Made by a program: the position numbers and the translations under genes. A stretch of DNA of 14,867 bases from Candidatus Bathyarchaeota archaeon. GTDB taxonomy: Archaea > Thermoproteota > Bathyarchaeia > TCS64. This document shows positions 2,150 to 13,797 of this stretch, one piece after another; the stretch's first letter is position 1, and every line of letters starts with the position of its first letter. Below the pieces are notes generated by a model. That model was not told where the DNA came from. It saw only the letters and a list, made by a program, of their open reading frames with translations, and made no database searches. The DNA is taken from NCBI GenBank assembly GCA_937877765.1, contig CALGBN010000385.1, forward strand, positions 1 through 14,867, in the 5' to 3' direction.

Positions 2150-3057
2150 TGTTCGAAAAGCTCAGAAACGGACTCAAAGGCATCGTAAAAAAAATTAGTA
2201 ACACCGGTTTTACAGAGAAAGACCTCGAACCCATTCTATGGGACCTACAGATGCAACTGATTGGAAACGATGTAAGCGTCGAGGTAGCTGAAAAAGTATG
2301 TACAGAGCTTAAGGAACGTTTGATCGGATCAGAGGCTCCAAGATTTGGTGATAAGAGTGATGTTGTTGAGATTGCACTAAAGGAATCTCTTGAAACAGTA
2401 ATGAACGGAGAATCTCGACTGGACCTTTTAGAAAAAGTAGCAGAGTCCAAGAAACAAGGTGAACCTTACAGTATTATGTTTGTCGGGATAAACGGTACAG
2501 GTAAAACTACTACAATCGCGAAAGTAACCCATCTTTTACAGAAAAACGGATATAGCGTAGTACTAGCATCAGGCGACACCTATAGAGCTGGAGCAATAGA
2601 ACAGCTAGAAGAACACGGAAGAAGACTAGGAGTACGAGTAATTCGCCACAAATACGGTTCAGACGCAGCAGCGGTAGGCTATGATGCAATTGAACATGCC
2701 CGCGCGCAAGGAATCGATGTAGTATTGATTGATACTGCTGGTCGTATGCAGACAAACCGAAACCTAATGGATGAACTCCAGAAAGTAAAACGAGTCGTTC
2801 AGCCAAAACTCACAATAATGATACTTGACAGCCTCATCGGAAACGATGCAACAGAACAAGCCATGACCTTCAACAAACACATCGGATTCGACGCAGCGAT
2901 AATAACAAAGATAGATGCGGACGCTAAAGGCGGTAGTAGCCTCAGTGTATCATATCTCACAGGAAAACCTGTGTTATTTGTAGGTGTAGGACAGGGGTAT
3001 GATGATCTACAGCCCTTCAATGTGGAGTGGTTCGCAGATAAACTCCTCCAAAATTAG
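2149..3057 (+). CDS. ftsY: Signal recognition particle receptor FtsY
   Basis: GTPase that docks SRP-ribosome complexes at the membrane and hands them to the Sec translocon. The 302-aa protein has an N domain (about 1-100) and a complete G domain: P-loop GINGTGKT (113-120), DTYRAGAIEQL (143-153), DTAGR (195-199), TKID specificity motif (253-256), and the GVGQGYDDLQPF closing motif (279-290). FtsY and SRP54 (Ffh) are paralogues; the absence of a C-terminal methionine-rich M domain, the GQGYDDLQPF ending and the lack of a bacterial-style long acidic A domain fit archaeal FtsY. It overlaps prefoldin alpha by one base and precedes SecE, so two parts of one secretion pathway are adjacent. Confidence 0.96.
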   Translation: MFEKLRNGLKGIVKKISNTGFTEKDLEPILWDLQMQLIGNDVSVEVAEKVCTELKERLIGSEAPRFGDKSDVVEIALKESLETVMNGESRLDLLEKVAESKKQGEPYSIMFVGINGTGKTTTIAKVTHLLQKNGYSVVLASGDTYRAGAIEQLEEHGRRLGVRVIRHKYGSDAAAVGYDAIEHARAQGIDVVLIDTAGRMQTNRNLMDELQKVKRVVQPKLTIMILDSLIGNDATEQAMTFNKHIGFDAAIITKIDADAKGGSSLSVSYLTGKPVLFVGVGQGYDDLQPFNVEWFADKLLQN

Positions 3058-3098
3058 TAAACTTTAACTAGGATTTATGGTTCGATAGGGTGAATAAT

Positions 3099-3269
3099 AT
3101 GGGACTTAACGATTTTTTCCAATCAGCAGACAGGCTTCTGCGAACACTGAGTAGACCAGACTGGAAGACCTACTGGATGAGCATCAAGATAGTCTTTGCT
3201 GGAATTGGCTTAATGGGAGCCATCGGATATATCGTAAAGCTCCTCGCGGCGGTTATCACGCCTAGTTAA
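3099..3269 (+). CDS. secE: Preprotein translocase subunit SecE / Sec61-gamma
   Basis: A 56-aa tail-anchored-type subunit that clamps SecY in the protein-conducting channel. It has an amphipathic N-terminal helix (NDFFQSADRLLRTLSRPDW), the characteristic PDWKTYWMSIKIV junction, and a single transmembrane helix (about 31-54). GGGTGA sits about 8 nt ahead of the ATG. It follows FtsY by 41 bp. In most archaea Spt5 follows directly; here 313 bp and an antisense ORF intervene. Confidence 0.92.
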   Translation: MGLNDFFQSADRLLRTLSRPDWKTYWMSIKIVFAGIGLMGAIGYIVKLLAAVITPS

Positions 3270-3285
3270 AAGAAATTTATTTCTT
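3270..3285. terminator. Possible bidirectional terminator between convergent ends
   Basis: A perfect inverted repeat, AAGAAAT-TT-ATTTCTT, lies exactly between the secE stop and the stop of the opposing small ORF. It is AT-rich and weak as a hairpin, but A/T tracts on both strands at converging gene ends fit archaeal termination. Inferred from position and sequence only. Confidence 0.3.
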
Positions 3286-3445
3286 AGTTTTCCTTGTTGT
3301 AAGGATATTTCACATAGAATAGGTACATTAGTAATACGAGGAATCCTCCTGCAACAAGTGCAACTTCCTCGAACTCCAAGAACAGTATTGATGTGTCATG
3401 CTGCTGCGCTGCGACAAATGATAGTATTGATGATATTAGTCCCAT
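3284..3445 (-). CDS. Small hypothetical membrane protein between secE and spt5
   Basis: I do not recognise this protein. From the ATG at 3445 it is 53 aa; an ATG at 3472 would give 62 aa. It has a short hydrophobic N-terminus (MGLISSILSFVAA), a polar stretch (QQHDTSILFLEFEE) and one clear transmembrane helix (VALVAGGFLVLLMYLFYV) followed by a basic KYPYNKEN tail. A TATA-like CATATTAAAC (3478-3487, minus strand) would start transcription near 3457, and GTGA precedes the ATG at 3445, which favours the shorter form. It is antisense to a block of conserved housekeeping genes. Size and single anchor recall translocon accessory subunits, but there is no sequence match to SecG or Sec61-beta that I can see. 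It may also be a chance ORF. Confidence 0.5.
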   Translation of the reverse strand: MGLISSILSFVAAQQHDTSILFLEFEEVALVAGGFLVLLMYLFYVKYPYNKEN

Positions 3446-3477
3446 GTTTTTCACTAGCCACATACAATCCATATGGT

Positions 3478-3487
3478 GTTTAATATG
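3478..3487 (-). promoter_or_regulatory. TATA-like element for the small antisense ORF
   Basis: Read on the minus strand this is CATATTAAAC, centred about 38 bp ahead of the ATG at 3445. A start site near 3457 would give a leader of about a dozen bases. Support is positional only. Confidence 0.3.
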
Positions 3488-3533
3488 TTTTCCCAGTTTC
3501 TCGAAGCAGTAATTCGTTCATCGTTTTAGGAAT

Positions 3534-3541
3534 CTTAATAT
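3534..3541 (+). promoter_or_regulatory. TATA-like promoter for spt5-L11
   Basis: CTTAATAT lies about 45 bp ahead of the spt5 start, so transcription could begin near 3565 with a leader of under 20 nt. The insertion between secE and spt5 makes a separate promoter here necessary or at least likely. Confidence 0.35.
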
Positions 3542-3582
3542 CTACGCGCTTGATAATGCTTGGTGCATCGGGCGTGGTCTAG

Positions 3583-4050
3583 TTGTCCGAAAGAAGTATA
3601 AGAACATCCCTTTACGCGGTAAAAGTTACGAATGGTCAGGAGAGGACCGTAGCCTTAATGTTAGCTGATAAAGCCAAGGTTGAAGGCTCACCGATTCAGG
3701 CTATTCTAGCTCCAGCTGAGCTAAGGGGTTACGTTATCATTGAAGCCCAGACCCCTCACATTGTTGATGAACTCATCCGAGGGATGAGACACACACGTGA
3801 AAGGGTTCAGGGAACCATCAGTCCGGACGAAGTAGACCATTACATAGAAACCAAGCCGGTTGTAGAAGGCTTAGAAGAAGGAACACTGGTCGAGGTAATC
3901 GCCGGTCCCTTCAAGGGAATGCAGGCAAGAGTTGTCCGCGTGGAGTCCTCAAAAGAGGAGGTCACCATCGAGATACTTGAGGCTGCCTTCACGTTGCCTA
4001 TCACAGTCCACGCTGACTATGTCCGAGAACTCAAAGGAATAGAAGAATAA
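3583..4050 (+). CDS. spt5: Transcription elongation factor Spt5 (NusG family)
   Basis: A 155-aa NusG/Spt5 protein that bridges the RNA polymerase clamp with Spt4 and raises processivity. The NGN domain covers roughly residues 8-90 (LYAVKVTNGQERTVALMLADK, then GYVIIEAQTP). A single KOW domain follows at about 98-150 (EGTLVEVIAGPFKGMQARVV). The start is TTG; an in-frame TAG sits immediately upstream, so no earlier start is possible. The stop overlaps the uL11 start by one base (TAATG), implying translational coupling. The spt5-L11-L1-L10 order is the conserved archaeal arrangement. Confidence 0.94.
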   Translation: MSERSIRTSLYAVKVTNGQERTVALMLADKAKVEGSPIQAILAPAELRGYVIIEAQTPHIVDELIRGMRHTRERVQGTISPDEVDHYIETKPVVEGLEEGTLVEVIAGPFKGMQARVVRVESSKEEVTIEILEAAFTLPITVHADYVRELKGIEE

Positions 4051-4538
4051 TGGTAGAGAAGACTTTCAACTTCATCGTCAACGGCGGAAAAGCCACCGGT
4101 GGACCTCCCATCGGACCAGCACTTGGCCCAATGGGCGTTAACATCATGGCTATCGTCAACGACATAAACGCACAGACAGGGGAATACGATGGACTACCAG
4201 TACCAGTAGACGTAACCATTGACACAGACACCAGGGAGTTCAGCGTCAAGGTCGGCATGCTAACAACATTCGCACTGATCAGTCAAGCCGCTGGCTTGGA
4301 TAAAGGATCAGGAGAACCCAATACCAAGTTCGTGGCAGACATCAGCTTTGATCAGCTGATTGGAATAGCCAAGAAGAAACGGGCGGGGATCTATGCAGCT
4401 ACGCTAAAGACAGCTGTACGTGAAGTACTTGGTACATGCCAGAGCGCCGGTGTAACAGTCGATGGTAATCCCGCAAAAGAGGTTCAGGAAGCAATCAAGG
4501 CTGGAGAATATGACTCACAGCTCGTTGAGGCTGAATAA
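4050..4538 (+). CDS. rpl11: 50S ribosomal protein L11 (uL11)
   Basis: A 162-aa protein of the GTPase-associated centre at the base of the ribosomal stalk. The N-terminal domain carries the family motif GGPPIGPALGPMGVNI (about residues 17-32). The C-terminal RNA-binding domain includes ISFDQLIGIAKKK and the TAVREVLGTCQSAGVTVDG stretch. Length is normal for archaea. It is coupled to Spt5 by the TAATG overlap and separated from uL1 by 42 bp that contain a TATA-like element. Confidence 0.96.
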   Translation: MVEKTFNFIVNGGKATGGPPIGPALGPMGVNIMAIVNDINAQTGEYDGLPVPVDVTIDTDTREFSVKVGMLTTFALISQAAGLDKGSGEPNTKFVADISFDQLIGIAKKKRAGIYAATLKTAVREVLGTCQSAGVTVDGNPAKEVQEAIKAGEYDSQLVEAE

Positions 4539-4540
4539 AC

Positions 4541-4550
4541 CTTTAAAAAT
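4541..4550 (+). promoter_or_regulatory. TATA-like promoter ahead of uL1
   Basis: CTTTAAAAAT lies in the 42-bp gap between uL11 and uL1, about 40 bp before the TTG start, with a GAGAGG ribosome binding site at about 4566-4572. In Methanococcus the L1-L10-L12 genes form their own transcription unit under translational control by L1; whether L1 does so here cannot be seen. Confidence 0.4.
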
Positions 4551-4580
4551 GATACCATGTGAGAAAGAGAGGAATCTAAA

Positions 4581-5225
4581 TTGTCACTCCCGACAGAACA
4601 AATTATAAACGCAATCGAAAAGGCAAGAGAGGCATCGCCAGAACGAAATTTCGAGCAGAGCTTTGACCTTGCCATAAACCTACGGGAGCTCGACATGAAT
4701 AGGCCTGACAACAGAGTAAACATCCGTTTCCAGCTACCTAACGGTATAGGAAAAAGGAAGGTACTCGTGTTCGCCTCAGGCGACCTCGCGCTGAGAGCAA
4801 GGAGGGCAGGAGCGGACGAAGTAGTAGAGCCCGCAGAACTTGATCAGCTTGCGACGGACAAAAAAGCAGCTAAGAAAAAGCTTGCACCATATGACTCGTT
4901 CGTCGCTGAGGCACCGATGATGCCAACAGTAGGTCGCGTAGCAGGACCAATCTTGGGACCCAGGGGAAAGATGCCCACTCCTGTACCGCCACAGGCACCC
5001 ATAGACGAGATATTAGAACGCGAGCGCCGTACAATAATACTCAGAAGCAGGGACAAAGCGTTTGTCCACTGTATAGTAGGAAAGGAGGGAATGAGCGACG
5101 AGGAGGTCGCCCAGAACATCGAGACAGTCGTTAGGAACCTGACGGCTGCCACGAAGAGAGGCTTTGCGAACATCAAGACGATGTACTTGAAGCTGACCAT
5201 GGGTGACAGCGTCAAGCTCGTATAG
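4581..5225 (+). CDS. rpl1: 50S ribosomal protein L1 (uL1)
   Basis: A 214-aa mobile L1-stalk protein that contacts E-site tRNA. It starts with TTG and has a good GAGAGG ahead of it. Two-domain L1 features are visible: the N-terminal strand with LAINLRELDMNRPDNRVN, the inserted domain with KVLVFASGDLALRARRAGADEV, and the strictly conserved hinge GPILGPRGKMPTPVP (about residues 119-133), then VGKEGMSDEEVAQNI and the TKRGFANIKTMYLKLTMG ending. uL10 starts 9 bp after its stop. Confidence 0.96.
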   Translation: MSLPTEQIINAIEKAREASPERNFEQSFDLAINLRELDMNRPDNRVNIRFQLPNGIGKRKVLVFASGDLALRARRAGADEVVEPAELDQLATDKKAAKKKLAPYDSFVAEAPMMPTVGRVAGPILGPRGKMPTPVPPQAPIDEILERERRTIILRSRDKAFVHCIVGKEGMSDEEVAQNIETVVRNLTAATKRGFANIKTMYLKLTMGDSVKLV

Positions 5226-5234
5226 GTGAATATC

Positions 5235-6095
5235 ATGAGTAGCCACATTCCATCCGAGAAATACGAGACCGTTCAGGAAACAGTCGAGCTAATCAATCAA
5301 TATGAGATAATCGCAGCCGCAGACCTCAATAAAGTAAGCAGCTCAATGCTACAGGACATGAGGAAGCAGCTTCGTGGCAGACACAAGTTCAAGGTAGTAA
5401 AGAACACCTTGATGCGGATCAGTATGGAGGAAGCCGGAAAAGAGGGAACACAAGATTTCATTGACTCAGTCAGTGGACCAAACGTGTTCCTATTCACAAA
5501 CGGCAATCCATTCAGGATCGCCATGGAGCTAGACGCCAACAAAGTCAAGGTATTCGCCAAGGCAGGGGATATCGCCATGAACGATATCGTCATGAGCGCA
5601 GGTAACACTGGGCTAAGCCCCGGACCCCTCATCGGGAAATTCGGTGTTCTTGGCGTAAGAACAAGAATTGAGGCAGGCAACATCTGGATAGCACAAGACA
5701 CAACCGTATGCAAGAAAGGTGAAGAGATCAGCGAAGACCTCGCGGACCTTCTCCAGCGTATGGGTGTAAGAGCATCCGAGATGGGGCTAAGCATTAAGGC
5801 AGTCTACGAGAAAGGCGATGTACTACTAGGTGAAGACCTGATACTAGACATCGACGAGTACAAGACTCAGCTAGAGCAGGCAATTGGTGGAGCATTCCAG
5901 GTAGCCGTCGAGGCAGCCTATGTGACTCCAGAAACACTACCCACCATCATAGCGAAGGCAGTGCAGCAGGCACGTTCAGTAGCTGTGGAGGCGGAGTGGC
6001 CAACACCTCAGACTATTGAGTTATTGATTGCCAAGGCTAATGCAGAAGCCAGAGGACTCGCCAGCAAGGTTGGCGAGAAGATGGCGGACGCTTAA
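5235..6095 (+). CDS. rpl10: 50S ribosomal protein L10 / acidic stalk protein P0 (uL10), without C-terminal tail
   Basis: Stalk base protein that anchors P1/L12 dimers. The preferred ATG at 5235 has AGGTGA about 8 nt upstream and gives 286 aa; a GTG at 5226 adds three residues. The rRNA-binding N-domain shows LQDMRKQLRGRHKFKVVKNTL (too long to quote further), and SPGPLIGKFGVLGVRTRIEA lies in the middle. The C-terminal helix has a 26-residue period (near residues 220, 246 and 272) with A-x-x-VAVEA...TP-x-T...IIAKA copies, as expected for L12-dimer docking. It ends at KVGEKMADA. The acidic tail and terminal LGxLF motif usual in archaeal P0 are missing, and no P1/L12 gene follows. Archaeal P0 is generally longer, 310-340 aa. 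Confidence 0.95.
   Translation: MSSHIPSEKYETVQETVELINQYEIIAAADLNKVSSSMLQDMRKQLRGRHKFKVVKNTLMRISMEEAGKEGTQDFIDSVSGPNVFLFTNGNPFRIAMELDANKVKVFAKAGDIAMNDIVMSAGNTGLSPGPLIGKFGVLGVRTRIEAGNIWIAQDTTVCKKGEEISEDLADLLQRMGVRASEMGLSIKAVYEKGDVLLGEDLILDIDEYKTQLEQAIGGAFQVAVEAAYVTPETLPTIIAKAVQQARSVAVEAEWPTPQTIELLIAKANAEARGLASKVGEKMADA
5889..6092 (+). repeat. 26-residue helical repeats in the P0 stalk-binding helix
   Basis: Within the uL10 gene, AFQVAVEAAYVTPET and ARSVAVEAEWPTPQT are spaced exactly 26 residues apart, and a third, shortened copy (ARGLASKV) follows after another 26. In archaea such segments each bind one dimer of P1/L12. The third copy runs into the protein's end. Confidence 0.7.
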
Positions 6096-6100
6096 ACCAA

Positions 6101-6117
6101 TTTTATTTTTTTCTTTG
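6101..6117 (+). terminator. T-rich terminator after uL10
   Basis: Sequence TTTTATTTTTTTCTTTG begins 5 bp after the uL10 stop. Oligo-T tracts without a strong hairpin are the usual archaeal terminator. It closes the L1-L10 unit, arguing that no stalk gene was simply missed downstream. Confidence 0.6.
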
Positions 6118-6118
6118 T

Positions 6119-6130
6119 TAAATAATATAT
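6119..6130 (+). promoter_or_regulatory. TATA-like promoter of the phosphoesterase gene
   Basis: TAAATAATATAT lies about 29 bp from its centre to the GTG at 6154, so the transcript would begin at or just before the start codon (leaderless). This placement is a reason to choose GTG 6154 as the start. Confidence 0.5.
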
Positions 6131-6153
6131 CTGGTTCTTACTGTATACTAGGT

Positions 6154-6765
6154 GTGAAGGATAGAGAACCACTACGGGATTATAAGGAGAAACGGGATTT
6201 TTCATCGACCCCTGAGCCTAGCGGTGAGCTAAAGGAAAGCGGAGATTCTCCTATATTTGTTATTCAAAAACATGATGCCAGTAATCTACACTATGATCTC
6301 AGATTAGAAGCTGATGGAGTCTTGAAGTCATGGGCTGTTCCCAAGGGACCATCCATGGATCCAAAGGTAAAGCGATTAGCAGTTCCCACCGAGGATCACC
6401 CTATGGCATATGCTGATTTTGAGGGTGTAATCCCTGAGGGTCATTATGGGGCTGGTACGGTTATTGTGTGGGACTCTGGTACATTTAGTAATACAAAGGG
6501 TGATGATGTCAATCTCTCAGATAACTTGAATGAAGGACATGCAACCATTCATTTGAAGGGCTCCAAGCTAATAGGAAACTTTGCGTTGATAAGAACAAAG
6601 CGTGGCGGAAAACGCCCACAATGGCTTTTCTTCAAGATGAAGGACGATTACACTAAACCCGGTAGTGATATTACTTCTGAGATGCCGAACTCATCAAAGA
6701 CTGGACGTAGCTTGGAGGAAGTAGCTGCTGAGGAAGAACCCGCCGACTTGGGTGATTTTGAGTAG
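6154..6765 (+). CDS. Stand-alone DNA ligase D-type 3'-phosphoesterase
   Basis: A 203-aa protein equal to the PE domain of bacterial LigD, a manganese-dependent enzyme that trims 3'-phosphates and 3'-ribonucleotides at DNA breaks. The family core is present: KRDF near residues 13-16, IQKHDASNLHYDLRLE (37-52) with H40, H46, D48 and R50, then SWAVPKGPSMDP, EDHPMAYADFEG with H82, and IPEGHYGAGTVIVWDSG. All expected metal- and phosphate-binding residues appear present. The C-terminus is acidic and probably disordered (EEVAAEEEPADLGDFE). Start: GTG 6154 behind a TATA box; longer in-frame starts lie inside uL10. No ligase, polymerase/primase or Ku gene is next to it. Free-standing PE proteins are known in archaea. 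Confidence 0.92.
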   Translation: MKDREPLRDYKEKRDFSSTPEPSGELKESGDSPIFVIQKHDASNLHYDLRLEADGVLKSWAVPKGPSMDPKVKRLAVPTEDHPMAYADFEGVIPEGHYGAGTVIVWDSGTFSNTKGDDVNLSDNLNEGHATIHLKGSKLIGNFALIRTKRGGKRPQWLFFKMKDDYTKPGSDITSEMPNSSKTGRSLEEVAAEEEPADLGDFE

Positions 6766-8678: not shown

Positions 8679-10823
8679 TTAGAGTTTGGATAGGTTTTTC
8701 TCTATGAGGTAGAGTTTTCCGCCGTTATCAGCTATAATACCTAGGCGAGTGAGTCTCATCTGTATCATTCTTTGATATTGGGGCGGTATTTCCAGTTCCT
8801 CAAAGGTTTTAGCTGTTTCAGGTGATGTGGCTTGTTTCTTTTTGAAGATTTCAACTATCTCCATGGCTCGTTGCCGCATCATCTCGGGTGATGGCCCGCC
8901 GCTGGGGCCTCTTCTTTTTCCCATCATGGGCATGGAGCTGGTTGGCTGATCGTAGACTTCTACTGGTTTGATGTACTCAAAGTCGGCGTCGTCTATGGTG
9001 CCCTTGAACTGGCTCATGTAGAGGTTGTAGTAGAATCCCTTCTTTTCTAGGAGTTCTTCATGGTTTCCGCGTTCGATTATCTCGCCGTTGTTGATGACTA
9101 GTACCATGTCTGCTTTTCTGATGGTGCTGAGTCTGTGAGCAATTACGAAGCTGGTTCTCCCCTCCATGAGGTTCAACAATGCTTCCTGTATTTGTACCTC
9201 GGTTCTTGTGTCTACGCTGCTTGTCGCCTCATCTAGGATGAGTATCGCGGGGTTGGCGATTATTGCTCGCGCGATGCTGATTAGTTGTCTTTGTCCTTGG
9301 CTTAGGTTTCCTGCTCTTTCGCTTAGCTCTGTTTGGTAGCCTTTTGGTAGGCGTCTGATGAAGCCGTCTGCGTTTGCTAGTTTTGCTGCTGCTATGCACT
9401 CCTCGTCTGTGGCGACAAGATTACCGTATCTGATGTTATCCATGACGGTGCCGCTGAACAGGTAAACATCCTGTAGAACAATACCTAGTTTGCTTCGGAG
9501 GTAATCTTTCTTCACGTTTCTGATATCCAAGCCATCGATAGTTATCTTACCTTTCTGAATATCATAGAAACGTGTTAGGACATTGACGATAGTTGTCTTT
9601 CCCGCACCGGTGGGTCCAACCAAGGCGATTGTTTCACCGGGTTTCGCGTGCAAGCTTATGTTTTTGAGGACCGGGACATCTGGTACATACTCAAAGTCTA
9701 CTTCCTCGAAAACCACTTCTCCTTGGATTTGTTGGGGGCTTACTGCGTCCTCACAGTCAGTTAGCTCTGGTGGGGTGTCGATTATCTCGAATATTCGTTC
9801 TGCTCCTGCTAGTGCTGATTGTATACTGTTGTACATGTTGGCGAAGTGTCGTAGTGGGTTTGCGAATTGTCTGCTGTACTGTATGAATGTGGCTATTGTT
9901 CCAATTGTTGCTAGTCCTTGTAGTGTCATCCATCCGCCTAGTCCTGCGACTATGGCTATATTGGCGTTGCTGAGTATACCCATGATTGGTGGTACCATCA
10001 TGGCGTAGGTTAATGCAAGTACTCCTGTTTCTTTGACTGCTTGATTCATTTTATCGAATTTCTTGTTTACCGCGTCTTGTTGCTCGAATGCTATTACTAC
10101 TTTTTGTCCACCTAGGGTTTCCTGTATTACTCCGTTTAGTCCACCTGTCTGTTTCTGTAGGTCTCTATAGTATACTCGTGTTCTTTTCCCGACTACGGCG
10201 GTAAATATTATCATCAATGGGAATACTATGAGGCTAGCGAGTGCAAGCCAGACATTTAGGCTGAACATTAGGACGATGATTCCTACCAGTGTCAAAAGGT
10301 TCTGAACTAGTTGGGTTACGTTCTGTGTTAACAAGGCTCCTATTGCGTCGATATCGTTTGTGAGTCGGCTCATTAAGTCTCCTGTCTGGTTTTTATCAAA
10401 GAAGCTTAGTGAGAGAAGCTGCATGTGCTCAAAGAGCTCTTTTCTCATCTTCATTAGGCTGCCTTGACTTATACCTGCCATGATTACGCTGTTTACACCT
10501 GCTACAAGCGTCGTAAAAACGTATACACCAGCAAGCATAAGGGAGATTCTTAGTAATCCATCCAGATCGCCTAGGACAATATACTTGTCTATTGCGACTC
10601 CCTGAAAATAAGGTCCAGCTAACCCTACCAAACTACTGGCTACAGTGGCTAAAACCACGAAAGCAATCTTAACCCTGTATTCTTTAAAGTAGTTTAGGAG
10701 TCTTAGGGTAGTTCCTTTTGCGTCTTTAGCTTTCTCGATGTTGCCCATTCCTCTTGGTCCGCGTCTATGCATTCCGGTTTGTGGTTGTGCCTCTTTCTTG
10801 TTGTCAGAATTTTTTCCGCTCAT
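8679..10823 (-). CDS. ABC exporter subunit with catalytic NBD and C-terminal winged-helix-like extension
   Basis: Type IV ABC exporter half-transporter (MdlB/TM288-like), 714 aa. After a polar N-terminus (1-45) come six transmembrane helices (about 53-325) and an NBD: Walker A GPTGAGKT (403-410), Q451, signature LSQGQ (507-511), Walker B with catalytic glutamate ILILDE (527-532), switch His563. The signature has Gln in place of the usual first Gly; in heterodimeric exporters this pairs with the partner's degenerate site. After the NBD (ending near 605) a Pro/Met/Gly-rich linker (625-648) leads to a helical segment (650-714) with SPETAKTFEELEIPP and RLGIIADNGGKLYLIEKN, resembling a winged helix; most exporters stop at about 600 aa. 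The start overlaps the upstream subunit stop (TAATG), with GGAGGTG just ahead. Confidence 0.95.
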   Translation of the reverse strand: MSGKNSDNKKEAQPQTGMHRRGPRGMGNIEKAKDAKGTTLRLLNYFKEYRVKIAFVVLATVASSLVGLAGPYFQGVAIDKYIVLGDLDGLLRISLMLAGVYVFTTLVAGVNSVIMAGISQGSLMKMRKELFEHMQLLSLSFFDKNQTGDLMSRLTNDIDAIGALLTQNVTQLVQNLLTLVGIIVLMFSLNVWLALASLIVFPLMIIFTAVVGKRTRVYYRDLQKQTGGLNGVIQETLGGQKVVIAFEQQDAVNKKFDKMNQAVKETGVLALTYAMMVPPIMGILSNANIAIVAGLGGWMTLQGLATIGTIATFIQYSRQFANPLRHFANMYNSIQSALAGAERIFEIIDTPPELTDCEDAVSPQQIQGEVVFEEVDFEYVPDVPVLKNISLHAKPGETIALVGPTGAGKTTIVNVLTRFYDIQKGKITIDGLDIRNVKKDYLRSKLGIVLQDVYLFSGTVMDNIRYGNLVATDEECIAAAKLANADGFIRRLPKGYQTELSERAGNLSQGQRQLISIARAIIANPAILILDEATSSVDTRTEVQIQEALLNLMEGRTSFVIAHRLSTIRKADMVLVINNGEIIERGNHEELLEKKGFYYNLYMSQFKGTIDDADFEYIKPVEVYDQPTSSMPMMGKRRGPSGGPSPEMMRQRAMEIVEIFKKKQATSPETAKTFEELEIPPQYQRMIQMRLTRLGIIADNGGKLYLIEKNLSKL

Positions 10824-12562
10824 TACTGGGCACCTCCGTCGCCTAGTTGGCTGTCATATATTTCCTTGTAGATTGGGCTGGTTTGTATAAGCTGGTCGTG
10901 TGTTCCCTCTGCCGCTATGTTACCGTCGTCAAGTACTATTATCTTGTCCGCGTTTAGCACTGTGCTGATCCTTTGTGCGATAATGAAGCTGGTCCGGTTT
11001 TTCATTAATTCCTCAAGTGCTTCTTCTATCTTGATCTCTGTCTCGACGTCAACAGCGCTTGTGCTGTCATCTAGTATGAGGATTGATGGTTTCACTAGGA
11101 GTGCTCTTGCGATAGCGATACGTTGTTTCTGTCCCCCACTTAGATTTACTCCTCTTTGTCCAACATTTGTATCGTATCCTTCTGGGAAACCTATGATAAA
11201 CTCATGGGCTTGAGCTGCTTTTGCTGCTTCTATGACCTCTTCGTCTGTTGCTTCTGGTCTTCCGTATCGTATATTATCTCTAATTGTTCCTGAGAATAGT
11301 ATTGCTTCCTGTAAGCTGATTCCAATATGTTTTCGTATACTCTTTGGTTCAACGTCTCTAACATCATAACCATCTATGAGCACTTTTCCATCTGAGACAT
11401 CATAGAACCTTGGAATAAGATGAATTAAACTGGATTTACCGCTTCCTGTTGAGCCAAGTATTGCTACTGTCTCACCGGGCTCAGCAGTAAAGTTGACGTT
11501 ATGTAGAACAGGGTCTCCACCGTCCTCTCGGTAACTGAATGAAACGTTTTTGAACTCTACTCTTCCCTTGACTTCTGCAAGTTGAACAGCGTCTAGTTTT
11601 TCTTTTATTTCAGGTTCATTGTCAAGAACTTCCATTATCCGTTTGGCTGATGCTTCGGCGAAGCTGATTTGACCAGCCATCATTGATAACATCATTATTG
11701 GGAACATGGCGCTGAAGACATAGTTTGTGAATGCGATTATTGTCCCAACTGTAGTTGATCCTTGAATTACCTGTATTCCGCCAAAGTATATTATTGCGAC
11801 AATTCCAGTGTTCATAATGAGAAGAGTTAATGGAAATAGTACTCCAATAAGCTGGTTTACACGTACGGATATATCGGTGAGTTCTTTGTTCGCGGACTTG
11901 AAGCGGGTTCCTTCATAATCTCTTCTCACGAATGCTTTGACTATTCTAATACCTGAGAGATTCTCTTCAAGTACTTGGTTCAGTTGTTCAAGTTTTTCCT
12001 GAGTCTTGGTGAATAATGGCTGAAGTTTTCTAATGAACAGAGTGATGAAAACTCCCGTTACTGGCATGAGAATAAGGATATATTTTGTTAACTGTGGATT
12101 TGTAGTCCACATTATGCTCAGGCTAATTATTGCCATCAACGGTGCTCGTGTGAACATTCGGAGAGTCATTGTCATCATCGTTCGGATTTGGTTTAGATCG
12201 CTTGTGAGTCTCGTTAATAGTTGACCACTAGATAGGTCGTCTAGGTTTCCAAAACTGTATGTCTGTATTTTCTTGAATATGTCCTCTCTCAGGTCTGCCT
12301 CAAATCCTCTGGAGGCTTTTACTGAGAAAATTGTATTACCTATCATCATCGTAGCGCTAAGGATGCTAGCACCTATCATCATGAGACTGGTTCGTAGTAC
12401 AATATCCATGTCTTGGTTTCCAATCCCCTCGTCTACTAAGGTCTGTACCATTCTCGGGATTGACAAGTCTAAGACTACTACTAATCCAAGGAAAATTATT
12501 GCAAGAACGGCTTCTCTAGTGTAAGGTCGAAGATATCTAAAGGTTCGTTTTAATTCACTCAT
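10823..12562 (-). CDS. ABC exporter subunit with degenerate NBD
   Basis: Partner half-transporter (MdlA/TM287-like), 579 aa. The transmembrane domain (about 15-300) is followed by an NBD: Walker A GSTGSGKS (370-377), Q418, canonical signature LSGGQ (474-478), Walker B ILILDD (494-499). The residue after the Walker B Asp is Asp499 instead of catalytic Glu, and the switch His is replaced by Gln530 (FIIAQR). This is the known pattern of one non-hydrolytic site in heterodimeric multidrug exporters (TM287/288, BmrCD, LmrCD type). The gene is between PadR (8-bp ATGAGTGA overlap) and the catalytic partner (1-bp overlap), so the three proteins should be made together. The substrate is not determinable; efflux of drugs, lipids or toxic metabolites is the family norm. 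Confidence 0.95.
   Translation of the reverse strand: MSELKRTFRYLRPYTREAVLAIIFLGLVVVLDLSIPRMVQTLVDEGIGNQDMDIVLRTSLMMIGASILSATMMIGNTIFSVKASRGFEADLREDIFKKIQTYSFGNLDDLSSGQLLTRLTSDLNQIRTMMTMTLRMFTRAPLMAIISLSIMWTTNPQLTKYILILMPVTGVFITLFIRKLQPLFTKTQEKLEQLNQVLEENLSGIRIVKAFVRRDYEGTRFKSANKELTDISVRVNQLIGVLFPLTLLIMNTGIVAIIYFGGIQVIQGSTTVGTIIAFTNYVFSAMFPIMMLSMMAGQISFAEASAKRIMEVLDNEPEIKEKLDAVQLAEVKGRVEFKNVSFSYREDGGDPVLHNVNFTAEPGETVAILGSTGSGKSSLIHLIPRFYDVSDGKVLIDGYDVRDVEPKSIRKHIGISLQEAILFSGTIRDNIRYGRPEATDEEVIEAAKAAQAHEFIIGFPEGYDTNVGQRGVNLSGGQKQRIAIARALLVKPSILILDDSTSAVDVETEIKIEEALEELMKNRTSFIIAQRISTVLNADKIIVLDDGNIAAEGTHDQLIQTSPIYKEIYDSQLGDGGAQ
10831..10837 (-). promoter_or_regulatory. Strong Shine-Dalgarno for the 714-aa ABC subunit
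   Basis: Minus-strand GGAGGTG lies 7 nt ahead of the ATG at 10823 and inside the end of the upstream subunit gene. It fixes the start and suggests efficient coupled translation, helping to make the two subunits in equal amounts. Confidence 0.7.
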
Positions 12563-13055
12563 TTTGTCTCTTGTCCATTTTTTCTAATTCTATTATTGTT
12601 TCATCGAGAATGTGTTTGAATTGATCAACGTTCTCTATTTCATCATATATTTCTTCGATACGGTCTAATAGGCTACTAAAACTCTCGTATACTTCTTCAG
12701 GCATCCTCCTGAATAGCCTCCAGTATACTTTACGCATATTTGTACGCCCTTTTCTGATTCCTCTATGTTGGTCTCTATGTGCATCCAGTTCTTCTTCACC
12801 CTTTTTTGTAAGGATAAACCGTTTTAGACTTGGATCGCTGTCTTCACTGGGCTCGATTAATCCATTTTCATGAAGGCTATTAAGAAGTGGATATATGCTG
12901 CCTGGGCTTGGTTTCCAATCAGCATAGTACTCGATCTCTTCAGCGATCTCGCTCCCTGACATCGGCTTCTCCTTTAGGAGAATCATTGTAATAGGGCGTA
13001 ACATGCCTCTTGGGACTCCAATATGTTTTTTTCGGTGTCCGCGGAACGTTCTCAT
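12555..13055 (-). CDS. PadR-family transcriptional regulator
   Basis: A 166-aa repressor-type protein. The N-terminal winged helix (about 15-90) includes GMLRPITMILLKEKPMSGSE, the PadR signature SPGSIYPLLNSLHENGLIE (50-68), and a wing with KRFILTKKGEEEL. The C-terminal half (about 100-166) is a charged helical region for dimerisation. PadR proteins commonly repress an adjacent efflux gene and release DNA on drug binding (LmrR type). Here the gene overlaps the first exporter gene by 8 bp, and its promoter has repeated GATATCGA motifs, so self-repression of the whole operon is the simplest reading. A GGAG lies about 11 nt ahead of the ATG. Confidence 0.94.
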   Translation of the reverse strand: MRTFRGHRKKHIGVPRGMLRPITMILLKEKPMSGSEIAEEIEYYADWKPSPGSIYPLLNSLHENGLIEPSEDSDPSLKRFILTKKGEEELDAHRDQHRGIRKGRTNMRKVYWRLFRRMPEEVYESFSSLLDRIEEIYDEIENVDQFKHILDETIIELEKMDKRQNE

Positions 13056-13069
13056 TATTGTTTTACTCC

Positions 13070-13110
13070 AATATCGAATATGATATCGATTTCGATATCG
13101 AAAGCGATAC
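13070..13110. promoter_or_regulatory. Tandem 12-bp operator-like repeats at the padR promoter
   Basis: Units start at 13070 (AATATCGAATAT), 13082 (GATATCGATTTC) and 13094 (GATATCGAAAGC), followed by a partial GATACTGG at 13106. Each contains palindromic cores; TTCGATATCGAA (13091-13102) is a perfect 12-bp palindrome. The block lies between the TATA box and the padR start, covering the predicted transcription start, as expected of a repressor site that blocks polymerase. Binding by this PadR is inferred. Confidence 0.65.
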
Positions 13111-13112
13111 TG

Positions 13113-13121
13113 GTTTATAAA
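13113..13121 (-). promoter_or_regulatory. TATA box of the padR-ABC operon
   Basis: Minus-strand TTTATAAAC is a near-ideal archaeal TATA box. Initiation about 25 bp downstream would fall near 13091, inside the repeated operator block. Confidence 0.6.
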
Positions 13122-13133: not shown

Positions 13134-13706
13134 CTAGTTTCCTTCCCAACGCTCTCTAAATGTAATTTCAGAGACTTTAAAACGGGTCTCTTTTTCCTTT
13201 GGATCATCCGAGAAACCAATGGGCAAAATAGACTCAACCATTAACCCATCAGGAACTCCCAAAGCTTCAGAGACCAAGTTGGGATCAGATGGTGTATAGG
13301 TTACTGTAGCTAATCCCCGTTCCTCTATTGCCAATACCATGTATGCAATACTCACCCATAAACTAGGTTTATAGTTTGGAGCCGAGGTATCTCCAACAAC
13401 CACTATCAATACAGGAGCCTCTGTCAGATTGGGCTTTGATGGACTCAATCCTTTCTCATTATACCATACTTTCCTTTCTGGACTGAGATTATCATAGAAT
13501 CCTCTCTCCCCAGCTTCCGCTGATTCTCTGATATTCTTTTTCATTTCAGGGCTTTTTACAATGATAAAGCGCCATGGCTGTCTATTACTTCCACTAGGTG
13601 CCTGTCTGGCGGTCTCAAGAATGCACTCGATGTCCTCGTCTTTGATTGGTATGAGTTTGAATTTTCTCGCTGTCTTTCGTTTGGTTGCTAGGTCTAGTAT
13701 GGTCAT
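13134..13706 (-). CDS. Nitroreductase-family FMN-dependent oxidoreductase
   Basis: NAD(P)H-dependent flavin oxidoreductase of the nitroreductase fold. From the ATG at 13706 it is 190 aa and starts MTILDLATKRKTARKF, matching the family N-terminus where basic residues contact FMN phosphate. Other family features: ILETARQAPSGSNRQPWRFI (30-49, FMN binding), a mid region with APVLIVVVGD, and the C-terminal ESILPIGFSDDP. A TTG at 13763 gives 209 aa with an unrelated-looking extension; a TATA-like element centred about 26 bp ahead of 13706 favours the short form. The substrate cannot be told (nitroaromatics, quinones or flavins are family norms). It ends 78 bp before padR on the same strand, and adjacency to an efflux operon hints at xenobiotic handling, but nothing proves co-regulation. 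Confidence 0.9.
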   Translation of the reverse strand: MTILDLATKRKTARKFKLIPIKDEDIECILETARQAPSGSNRQPWRFIIVKSPEMKKNIRESAEAGERGFYDNLSPERKVWYNEKGLSPSKPNLTEAPVLIVVVGDTSAPNYKPSLWVSIAYMVLAIEERGLATVTYTPSDPNLVSEALGVPDGLMVESILPIGFSDDPKEKETRFKVSEITFRERWEGN

Positions 13707-13727
13707 GACTATGCTTAGACATAGAGA

Positions 13728-13737
13728 TGATAAATCG
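13728..13737 (-). promoter_or_regulatory. TATA-like element ahead of nitroreductase
   Basis: Minus-strand GATTTATCAT is centred about 26 bp before the ATG at 13706, consistent with a leaderless transcript. A competing, stronger-looking TATATATA at 13790-13798 would instead start near 13768, close to the alternative TTG at 13763. Confidence 0.3.
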
Positions 13738-13797
13738 TTTAGGTTTGAGGAGATTCTTTTCAATACATTTGATTAATTAATAGAACCTAGTATATAT

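Follow-up and report, generated by a model that had tools for sequence, protein, structure and literature searches.

TM287/288 of Thermotoga maritima is a heterodimeric ABC exporter with one degenerate site, and exporters under PadR control are a known drug-response circuit in bacteria. Elsewhere among the ABC proteins, the regulatory domain of MalK acts on MalT; in other words, an ABC subunit controls a transcription factor. To our knowledge, little is known about the communication between pumps and their regulators in the Archaea. In Lactococcus lactis, LmrR regulates lmrCD (PMC4534193, PMC5428041). The circuit of a PadR regulator and a heterodimeric exporter (LmrR-LmrCD) is already known; the additional domain described here, which hangs on one half of an archaeal exporter, is apparently undescribed.

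The locus lies in a 14,867-nucleotide stretch of DNA, hereafter “the window” (contig CALGBN010000385.1 of assembly GCA_937877765.1, Candidatus Bathyarchaeota archaeon). Its features are as follows.

8679-10823 (-): half-exporter ORF of 714 aa, made up of core, linker and tail
8679..8888 (-): predicted C-terminal winged-helix-like domain, residues ~646-714 plus stop (AlphaFold2 model, VIA-align, 11 exporter orthologues)
8889..9002 (-): Met/Pro/Gly-rich linker, residues 608-645 (low pLDDT, composition, length)
9003..10823 (-): half-exporter core (TMD + NBD), TM_0288-like (Pfam, alignment, motifs)
10823..12562 (-): partner half-exporter of 579 aa, without the tail (sequence, Pfam, motifs)
12555..13055 (-): PadR-family regulator of 166 aa, without the extra domain (PF03551, tree)
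13064-13111 (-): putative PadR operator, an array with a 12-bp period, between the TATA-like box and the PadR ATG
13094-13099, 13082-13087 and 13070-13075 (-): array units GATATC, GATATC and GATATT, with a degenerate fourth unit besides
13114-13121: TATA-like TTTATAAA, upstream of the array

Pfam places ABC_membrane at residues 54-324 and ABC_tran at residues 386-535 of the 714-aa half, whose best solved relative is TM_0288 (3qf4_B; residues 21-607, E 3.7e-177). The motifs of this half are LILDEATS, with the catalytic Glu after Walker B, IAHRL, with the switch His, and the signature LSQGQ. The 579-aa partner has a degenerate Walker B (LILDDSTS), IAQRI, and the signature LSGGQ; in this half, Asp stands in the position of the catalytic Glu and Gln in that of the switch His. 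Because of these two replacements in the partner, the adjacent genes, which encode two different TMD+NBD halves, are predicted to form a heterodimeric exporter with one degenerate nucleotide site. The PadR gene lies upstream of the pair (PF03551, E 1.2e-12) and overlaps the partner gene by 8 bp, and the three genes form an operon-like row. A nitroreductase-like gene without the extra domain lies beside the PadR gene (13134-13763 of the window), as such a gene also does at loci L142 and L144.

The TM_0288 match stops at residue 592 of that 598-residue chain, and because the alignment of the 714-residue half ends at residue 607, this half carries 107 extra residues at its C-terminus, in agreement with the estimate of about 105 made in a sequence-only reading of the window. 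The last 110 residues match no family in Pfam or NCBIfam. The Met/Pro/Gly-rich linker that had been noticed at the beginning of this extension is borne out by its composition, with Met, Pro and Gly at 12, 14 and 10% over residues 609-650 and at 8, 13 and 13% over residues 608-645; in ten orthologues, the linker is 36-75 residues long. The structure prediction proposed at that stage, an AlphaFold2 model built on residues 600-714, gives an ordered domain, with pLDDT block means of 77-85 across most of it and only residues 600-627 low (under 50). It contains helices at residues 646-662, 668-670, 681-693 and 708-713 and strands at 697-700 and 703-706, in the same order of helix, second helix, and strand-turn-strand wing as had been read from the letters. 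A second, fused copy of the domain (P0124) was modelled with block means of 81-91 over residues 11-70. Three helices followed by a beta-hairpin wing make the predicted structure winged-helix-like; helix 2, however, has just one turn (668-670 in the window copy, residues 27-29 in P0124) instead of its full length, and a canonical helix-turn-helix is therefore absent. In the fold comparison, transcription factors of the kind of IclR, MarR and LmrR make up most of the closest folds, and together with the models this supports the earlier suggestion of a winged-helix-like module. A search of PDB sequences with the domain profile returned only six matches, all at E 0.21 or worse, and a BFVD fold search returned nothing at E 0.001. 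Homology between the domain and the PadR part of PadRs that carry it was considered and rejected (hhalign probability 0.2%, from thin alignments). As to position, the reading had placed the module at 8679..8880; the domain is there, and this limit falls slightly inside it, helix 1 being modelled from about 8888. We place the tail, as a divergent member, in an apparently undescribed family of small winged-helix-like domains of about 65 residues.

At the family level, the domain occurs at the same place in the exporter halves of nine of the 27 genomes, including the window's (E 1.5e-39 in the window; the remaining eight lie between 4e-14 and 2e-10), so the tail is more than a chance extension. 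Three of the 27 genomes have it as a short separate ORF, and weak matches to frames of 523-527 aa (E 0.02-0.55) were discarded as chance. At the phylum level, an 11-row profile matches 21 of 398 genomes at E 0.001; at the class level, a 16-row profile matches 60 of 256. Inspection of the loci shows the following hosts: (i) the C-terminus of the exporter, at 11 loci; (ii) the N-terminus of PadR, at ten loci; (iii) proteins in which the domain precedes hydrophobic helices, mostly two, in 17 contexts (these include two short ORFs with a single predicted helix and a further case split over adjacent ORFs); (iv) the domain standing alone, in six contexts; and (v) three single hosts, namely the C-terminus of a nitroreductase (L185, 3814-4707), the C-terminal end of a membrane protein that has a CarboxypepD_reg-like domain and is truncated where the contig stops (L129/L189), and a zinc ribbon preceded by the domain (L157). 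Conserved motif columns are common to all of the hosts aligned. Above their cut-offs, Pfam and NCBIfam assign no family to the standalone copies or to those of the other hosts, giving sub-threshold scraps only.

A region search with the window tail alone found three of 23 candidates and was limited by exact words, and for this reason the two-helix and PadR forms were taken as queries. With the two-helix form, 892 cluster representatives match (897 candidates); among the matches listed (120 of 892), 112 have two, four have one, and four have no predicted membrane helix. With the PadR form, 152 of 192 candidates match, and 14 of the 120 among the matches listed carry PF03551. No plasmid record matches the two-helix form at E 0.001. 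A literature search over titles and the beginnings of abstracts, in a collection that leaves out most subscription journals, found nothing resembling the domain. The proposal of a recurring, undescribed archaeal module carried also by other proteins, membrane proteins among them, holds good in these profile and database searches: the domain family occurs in the Bathyarchaeia and some relatives, and is apparently undescribed. The counts leave out near-copies of genome G150 (G099, G297: L111-L113, L174), loci where the gene caller gave no domain ORF (L164, L172) or where the match contains stops (L168), and short stretches superseded by wider ones at the same place. Also excluded from the contexts and from the charge table given below are the distant short forms, which comprise L037-L042 and, among contexts, L131, L133, L135, L136, L175, L176 and L193-L195; L037 is nevertheless a row of profile A2.

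Several observations concern the other hosts themselves. The domain followed by two hydrophobic helices makes up a large unnamed archaeal family of small membrane proteins (L022, L148-L153, L158, L190 and most of P0004-P0123). A small MazE/AbrB-like gene lies 10-17 bp upstream of the two-helix form in L153 (4965-5198), L158 (5279-5530) and L186 (1918-2151), so called from the Pfam family MazE_antitoxin in L153 and by likeness in the other two. A set comprising an HTH_45-like winged-helix gene, a small membrane protein, a secreted protein and the domain, either alone or with two helices, recurs in L154, L162, L177 and L186, with some members absent or reordered; ABC exporter genes come after this set in L162 and L177. 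In the short ORFs of L037-L042, the motif recurs in a more remote form (GATSEETAKTPKEL ... DGRYYL in L037), and there is perhaps a wider family around the domain. Finally, seven proteins of 157-181 residues (P0153, P0154, P0156, P0176, P0192, P0201, P0236) are named “ABC-type multidrug transport system fused ATPase/permease subunit”; a protein of that kind would need a longer chain, and the annotation was perhaps taken from tail-bearing exporters.

A close orthologue of the exporter (E 1e-60) is found in 21 of the 256 class genomes, and in 11 of these it bears the tail (G000, G002, G004, G008, G009, G015, G016, G018, G019, G475, G564), in all 11 loci on the half with the catalytic Glu, that is, the catalytically competent half. 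The tail-less archaeal exporters, at ten loci in nine genomes, end 6-17 residues past the NBD motif, and one of them (G017) comes from the same genus as the window. Since these loci keep the exporter, the tail is dispensable. The last genome with an exporter orthologue, G025, was assessed with the 16-row profile, which gives no domain match there. Thirteen bacterial orthologues also lack the tail, their chains ending 5-17 residues past the NBD motif; these tree rows (seven Chloroflexota, three Bacillota and three others) were drawn from 48 loci, and further bacterial loci were not added. Several of the bacterial exporter pairs follow a regulator gene that is MarR-like by eye, not PadR. On the tree of the exporter core, the tail requires three gains or losses, at least two of them forced by well-supported branches: ten tail-bearing sequences form one clade with the tail-less G017 nested inside, and the tail-bearing G564 stands apart among tail-less sequences. 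The domain tree, built from few columns, unites the 13 exporter tails in a single clade (99/93). Both a single origin followed by losses and a transfer of the tail into G564 would fit these trees. We considered whether the exporter tail might contact another copy of the domain encoded by the genome of the window, and set this aside, as G000 (78% complete) shows a single copy.

Arrays of this kind first came to light ahead of the genes for fused PadRs, where they immediately precede the start codon. The pattern GATAT-N7-GATAT matches three times in the window against 0.03 expected from shuffles, and once in 468 kb of background (one of 24 stretches). The array is present at nine of the 11 tail-bearing loci and all ten PadR fusions, at two of the ten tail-less archaeal loci (both with PadR), at six of the 30 PadR control loci (one of them fused, L265), at one of the 17 two-helix loci (L150, at the PadR), at none of the six standalone loci, and at one of the three loci of other hosts, there not near the gene. 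The same array was noted in L121, L132, L137, L138, L166, L178, L179, L182, L184 and others. In a PadR tree of 50 rows, the 26 array rows and L181 form one clade (99/95); the array of L181 is matched only on the other strand, and three rows of the clade are repeat sightings of the same locus. One branch (100/99) holds the PadRs beside tail-bearing exporters together with those of G005 and G566, and another (82/81) holds the fused PadRs and a few unfused ones. The GATATC array is thus characteristic of a single archaeal PadR subfamily, whose members may or may not carry the domain, and the position and conservation of the array suggest that it is a putative operator to which the PadR binds. Because the array is present whether or not the PadR bears the domain, the domain is probably not its reader. 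A strict either-or rule, with the domain on PadR or on the exporter and never on neither, was rejected, as G005 and G566, with both a PadR and the array, lack the domain. In G564, the array lies near 6691 of L183, 176 bp before the tail-bearing exporter pair (2642-6515, minus strand), which has no adjacent PadR, as if regulated from elsewhere; a fused PadR with an array lies on a different contig (L182).

A PadR gene lies within three genes of the tail-bearing exporter at eight of the 11 loci, and the remaining three comprise a contig end, a masked stretch, and an array without an adjacent PadR. The expected linkage to PadR is therefore real, and it is not exclusive: the two tail-less orthologue loci of G005 and G566 also have PadR within three genes, together with the array, and of the 17 two-helix forms only 2 have a PadR nearby. 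Next to the fused PadRs, an ABC ATPase gene lies on the same strand within 300 bp at all ten loci. These neighbours are MacB/FtsX-like in L137 (by Pfam) and in L166, L121, L132, L138 and L179 (by sequence likeness), a TMD-NBD half-exporter in L184 (by Pfam), another kind of ATPase, partly masked, in L178, and upstream ATPases resembling importer parts in L181 (TOBE_2) and L182. By the same test, 0.8% of 477 background genes (24 stretches) have an adjacent ABC gene. As a control, 30 PadR loci were taken from 81 matches, of which 29 were readable (L276 was not) and one bears the domain; an adjacent ABC ATPase is present at six of the 28 PadR loci without the domain versus ten of the ten fused (Fisher p 1.7e-5), or six of 25 when three loci lacking a PadR probe match are removed (p 4.4e-5), both tests ignoring relatedness. 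PadR genes can thus stand beside ABC genes in the absence of the domain, so that the neighbourhood carries limited information. ABC genes lie within three genes of 2 of the 17 two-helix forms and one of the six standalone forms; no standalone form has a PadR nearby. The PadR near the two-helix form in L173 belongs to another PadR group in the tree, and in L150, amid ABC genes, 27 bp separate a domain-bearing two-helix protein from an upstream PadR that belongs to the array-bearing subfamily and lacks the domain.

What, then, may the tail do? An alignment of 65 domains (13 from exporters, 21 from PadRs, 22 from two-helix proteins, six alone and three from other hosts) gives mean net charges of -1.3, +1.6, +3.5, +3.3 and +2.7, respectively, and means of 6.2, 1.9, 1.8, 1.8 and 3.0 Met per domain; helix 3 carries basic residues in the two-helix proteins and mostly Met and neutral residues in the exporters. 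The profile of the exporter tails argues against DNA binding and favours a protein, membrane or ligand as what they contact. That the tail is a true winged-helix DNA-binding domain, tying the exporter to DNA such as its own operator, would suit the predominance of transcription factors among the closest folds and the basic character of the domain in PadR fusions and two-helix proteins. We consider it very improbable, because in the exporter copies most basic residues of helix 3 are missing and the average net charge is negative, because the models reduce helix 2 to one turn, and because the array occurs both where PadR carries the domain and where it does not. The docking of nucleic acid by the exporter copy, one of the options raised in the sequence-only reading, has lost ground for the same reason of charge (-1.3 versus +3.5 in the two-helix proteins). 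The Met-rich linker and helix 3 might instead sense a soft metal or a hydrophobic ligand and report substrate to the exporter, as the 6.2 Met per domain (1.8-3.0 in the other classes) and exporter linkers with up to 20% Met and up to four His would allow; we think this very doubtful, given that the Met content is highly variable (only 3% in the linkers of L140 and L183) and that no conserved Cys/His site is visible by eye in the domain alignment. There is little likelihood, too, that the tail is a passenger, a neutral C-terminal addition tolerated by the exporter. The three gains or losses on the core tree and an evolution faster than that of the core speak for it; among ten tail-bearing exporters, mean pairwise identity is 80% in the NBD, 66% in the TMD, 59% in the domain and 47% in the linker. 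On the other side stand the motif columns conserved across all aligned hosts and the domain dN/dS values of 0.20, 0.37, 0.13 and 0.12 in four of five pairs (dS being saturated in the fifth), which are rough because dS is high (1.7-1.8) in two of the four usable pairs; the NBD values are 0.05-0.09. Identities and dN/dS together indicate a domain that is constrained, less so than the core, and the domain thus appears to be under purifying selection while evolving faster than the NBD.

We favour, at even odds, the view that the tail is a regulatory protein-docking module in the cytoplasm, and not a DNA reader. The negative and Met-rich exporter copies, together with the independence of the array from the domain, argue against DNA reading. 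Hung by a flexible linker on the competent half of a heterodimeric exporter of the TM287/288 or LmrCD type, the tail could reach the exporter's own NBDs or a soluble partner. Since the domain is fused in some cases to PadR itself and in others to the product of a gene neighbouring PadR, be it an exporter or a membrane protein, we conjecture that the cognate PadR is the best candidate for this partner; docking it would allow the exporter to influence its own expression according to its state. The counterweight is that the tail is dispensable and that many copies of the domain lie away from PadR. The main rival is that the tail acts only within the exporter, without a link to PadR, folding back on the NBD dimer (for example, on the degenerate site) and tuning the ATPase cycle, assembly or stability. 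Its restriction, at all 11 tail-bearing loci, to the half that has the catalytic Glu, the flexible linker that permits such docking, and a Met-rich, uncharged surface suited to contact are all in keeping with this; yet the domain also occurs on PadR, nitroreductase, zinc-ribbon and two-helix proteins without an NBD, and orthologues manage without the tail, and we hold this explanation to be possible, if rather unlikely. The boldest form of the docking proposal would be a mobile winged-helix docking domain dealt out within one archaeal control circuit, on PadR at some loci, on a neighbouring membrane protein at another, and on the exporter in the window's lineage, where the tail would bind PadR and the pump, as its own sensor, would pull PadR off the GATATC array as substrate moves. 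We offer this only as a speculation, and an unlikely one as a whole.

A domain of ~65 residues that moves among a pump, regulators and small membrane proteins offers a handle on pump-regulator communication, and its distribution predicts a contact that is checkable with two purified proteins. Its family is large, as seen from the 892 matching cluster representatives in one protein database search, and the GATATC array would allow a possible regulon to be traced from one genome to the next.

Compared with the described systems, the core of the 714-aa half aligns to TM_0288, and the window pair is likewise split into a competent and a degenerate half; TM_0288 has no C-terminal domain, whereas the window half has one. 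With LmrR-LmrCD, the locus shares the linkage of a PadR gene to a heterodimeric exporter, the PF03551 gene here overlapping the partner gene; it differs in the extra winged-helix-like domain, which is on the exporter here and on PadR in sister loci, and in the putative operator, here a GATATC array. No sequence relation was found between the domain and the winged helices of LmrR, IclR, MarR and Z-alpha (PDB profile search; hhalign on thin alignments), and in contrast to them, helix 2 is reduced to one turn here and the exporter copies lack positive charge. If the docking to PadR holds, the closest analogy would be MalK and MalT, in which an ABC subunit likewise controls a transcription factor, with the difference that MalK is part of an importer, has another fold, and acts on another regulator.
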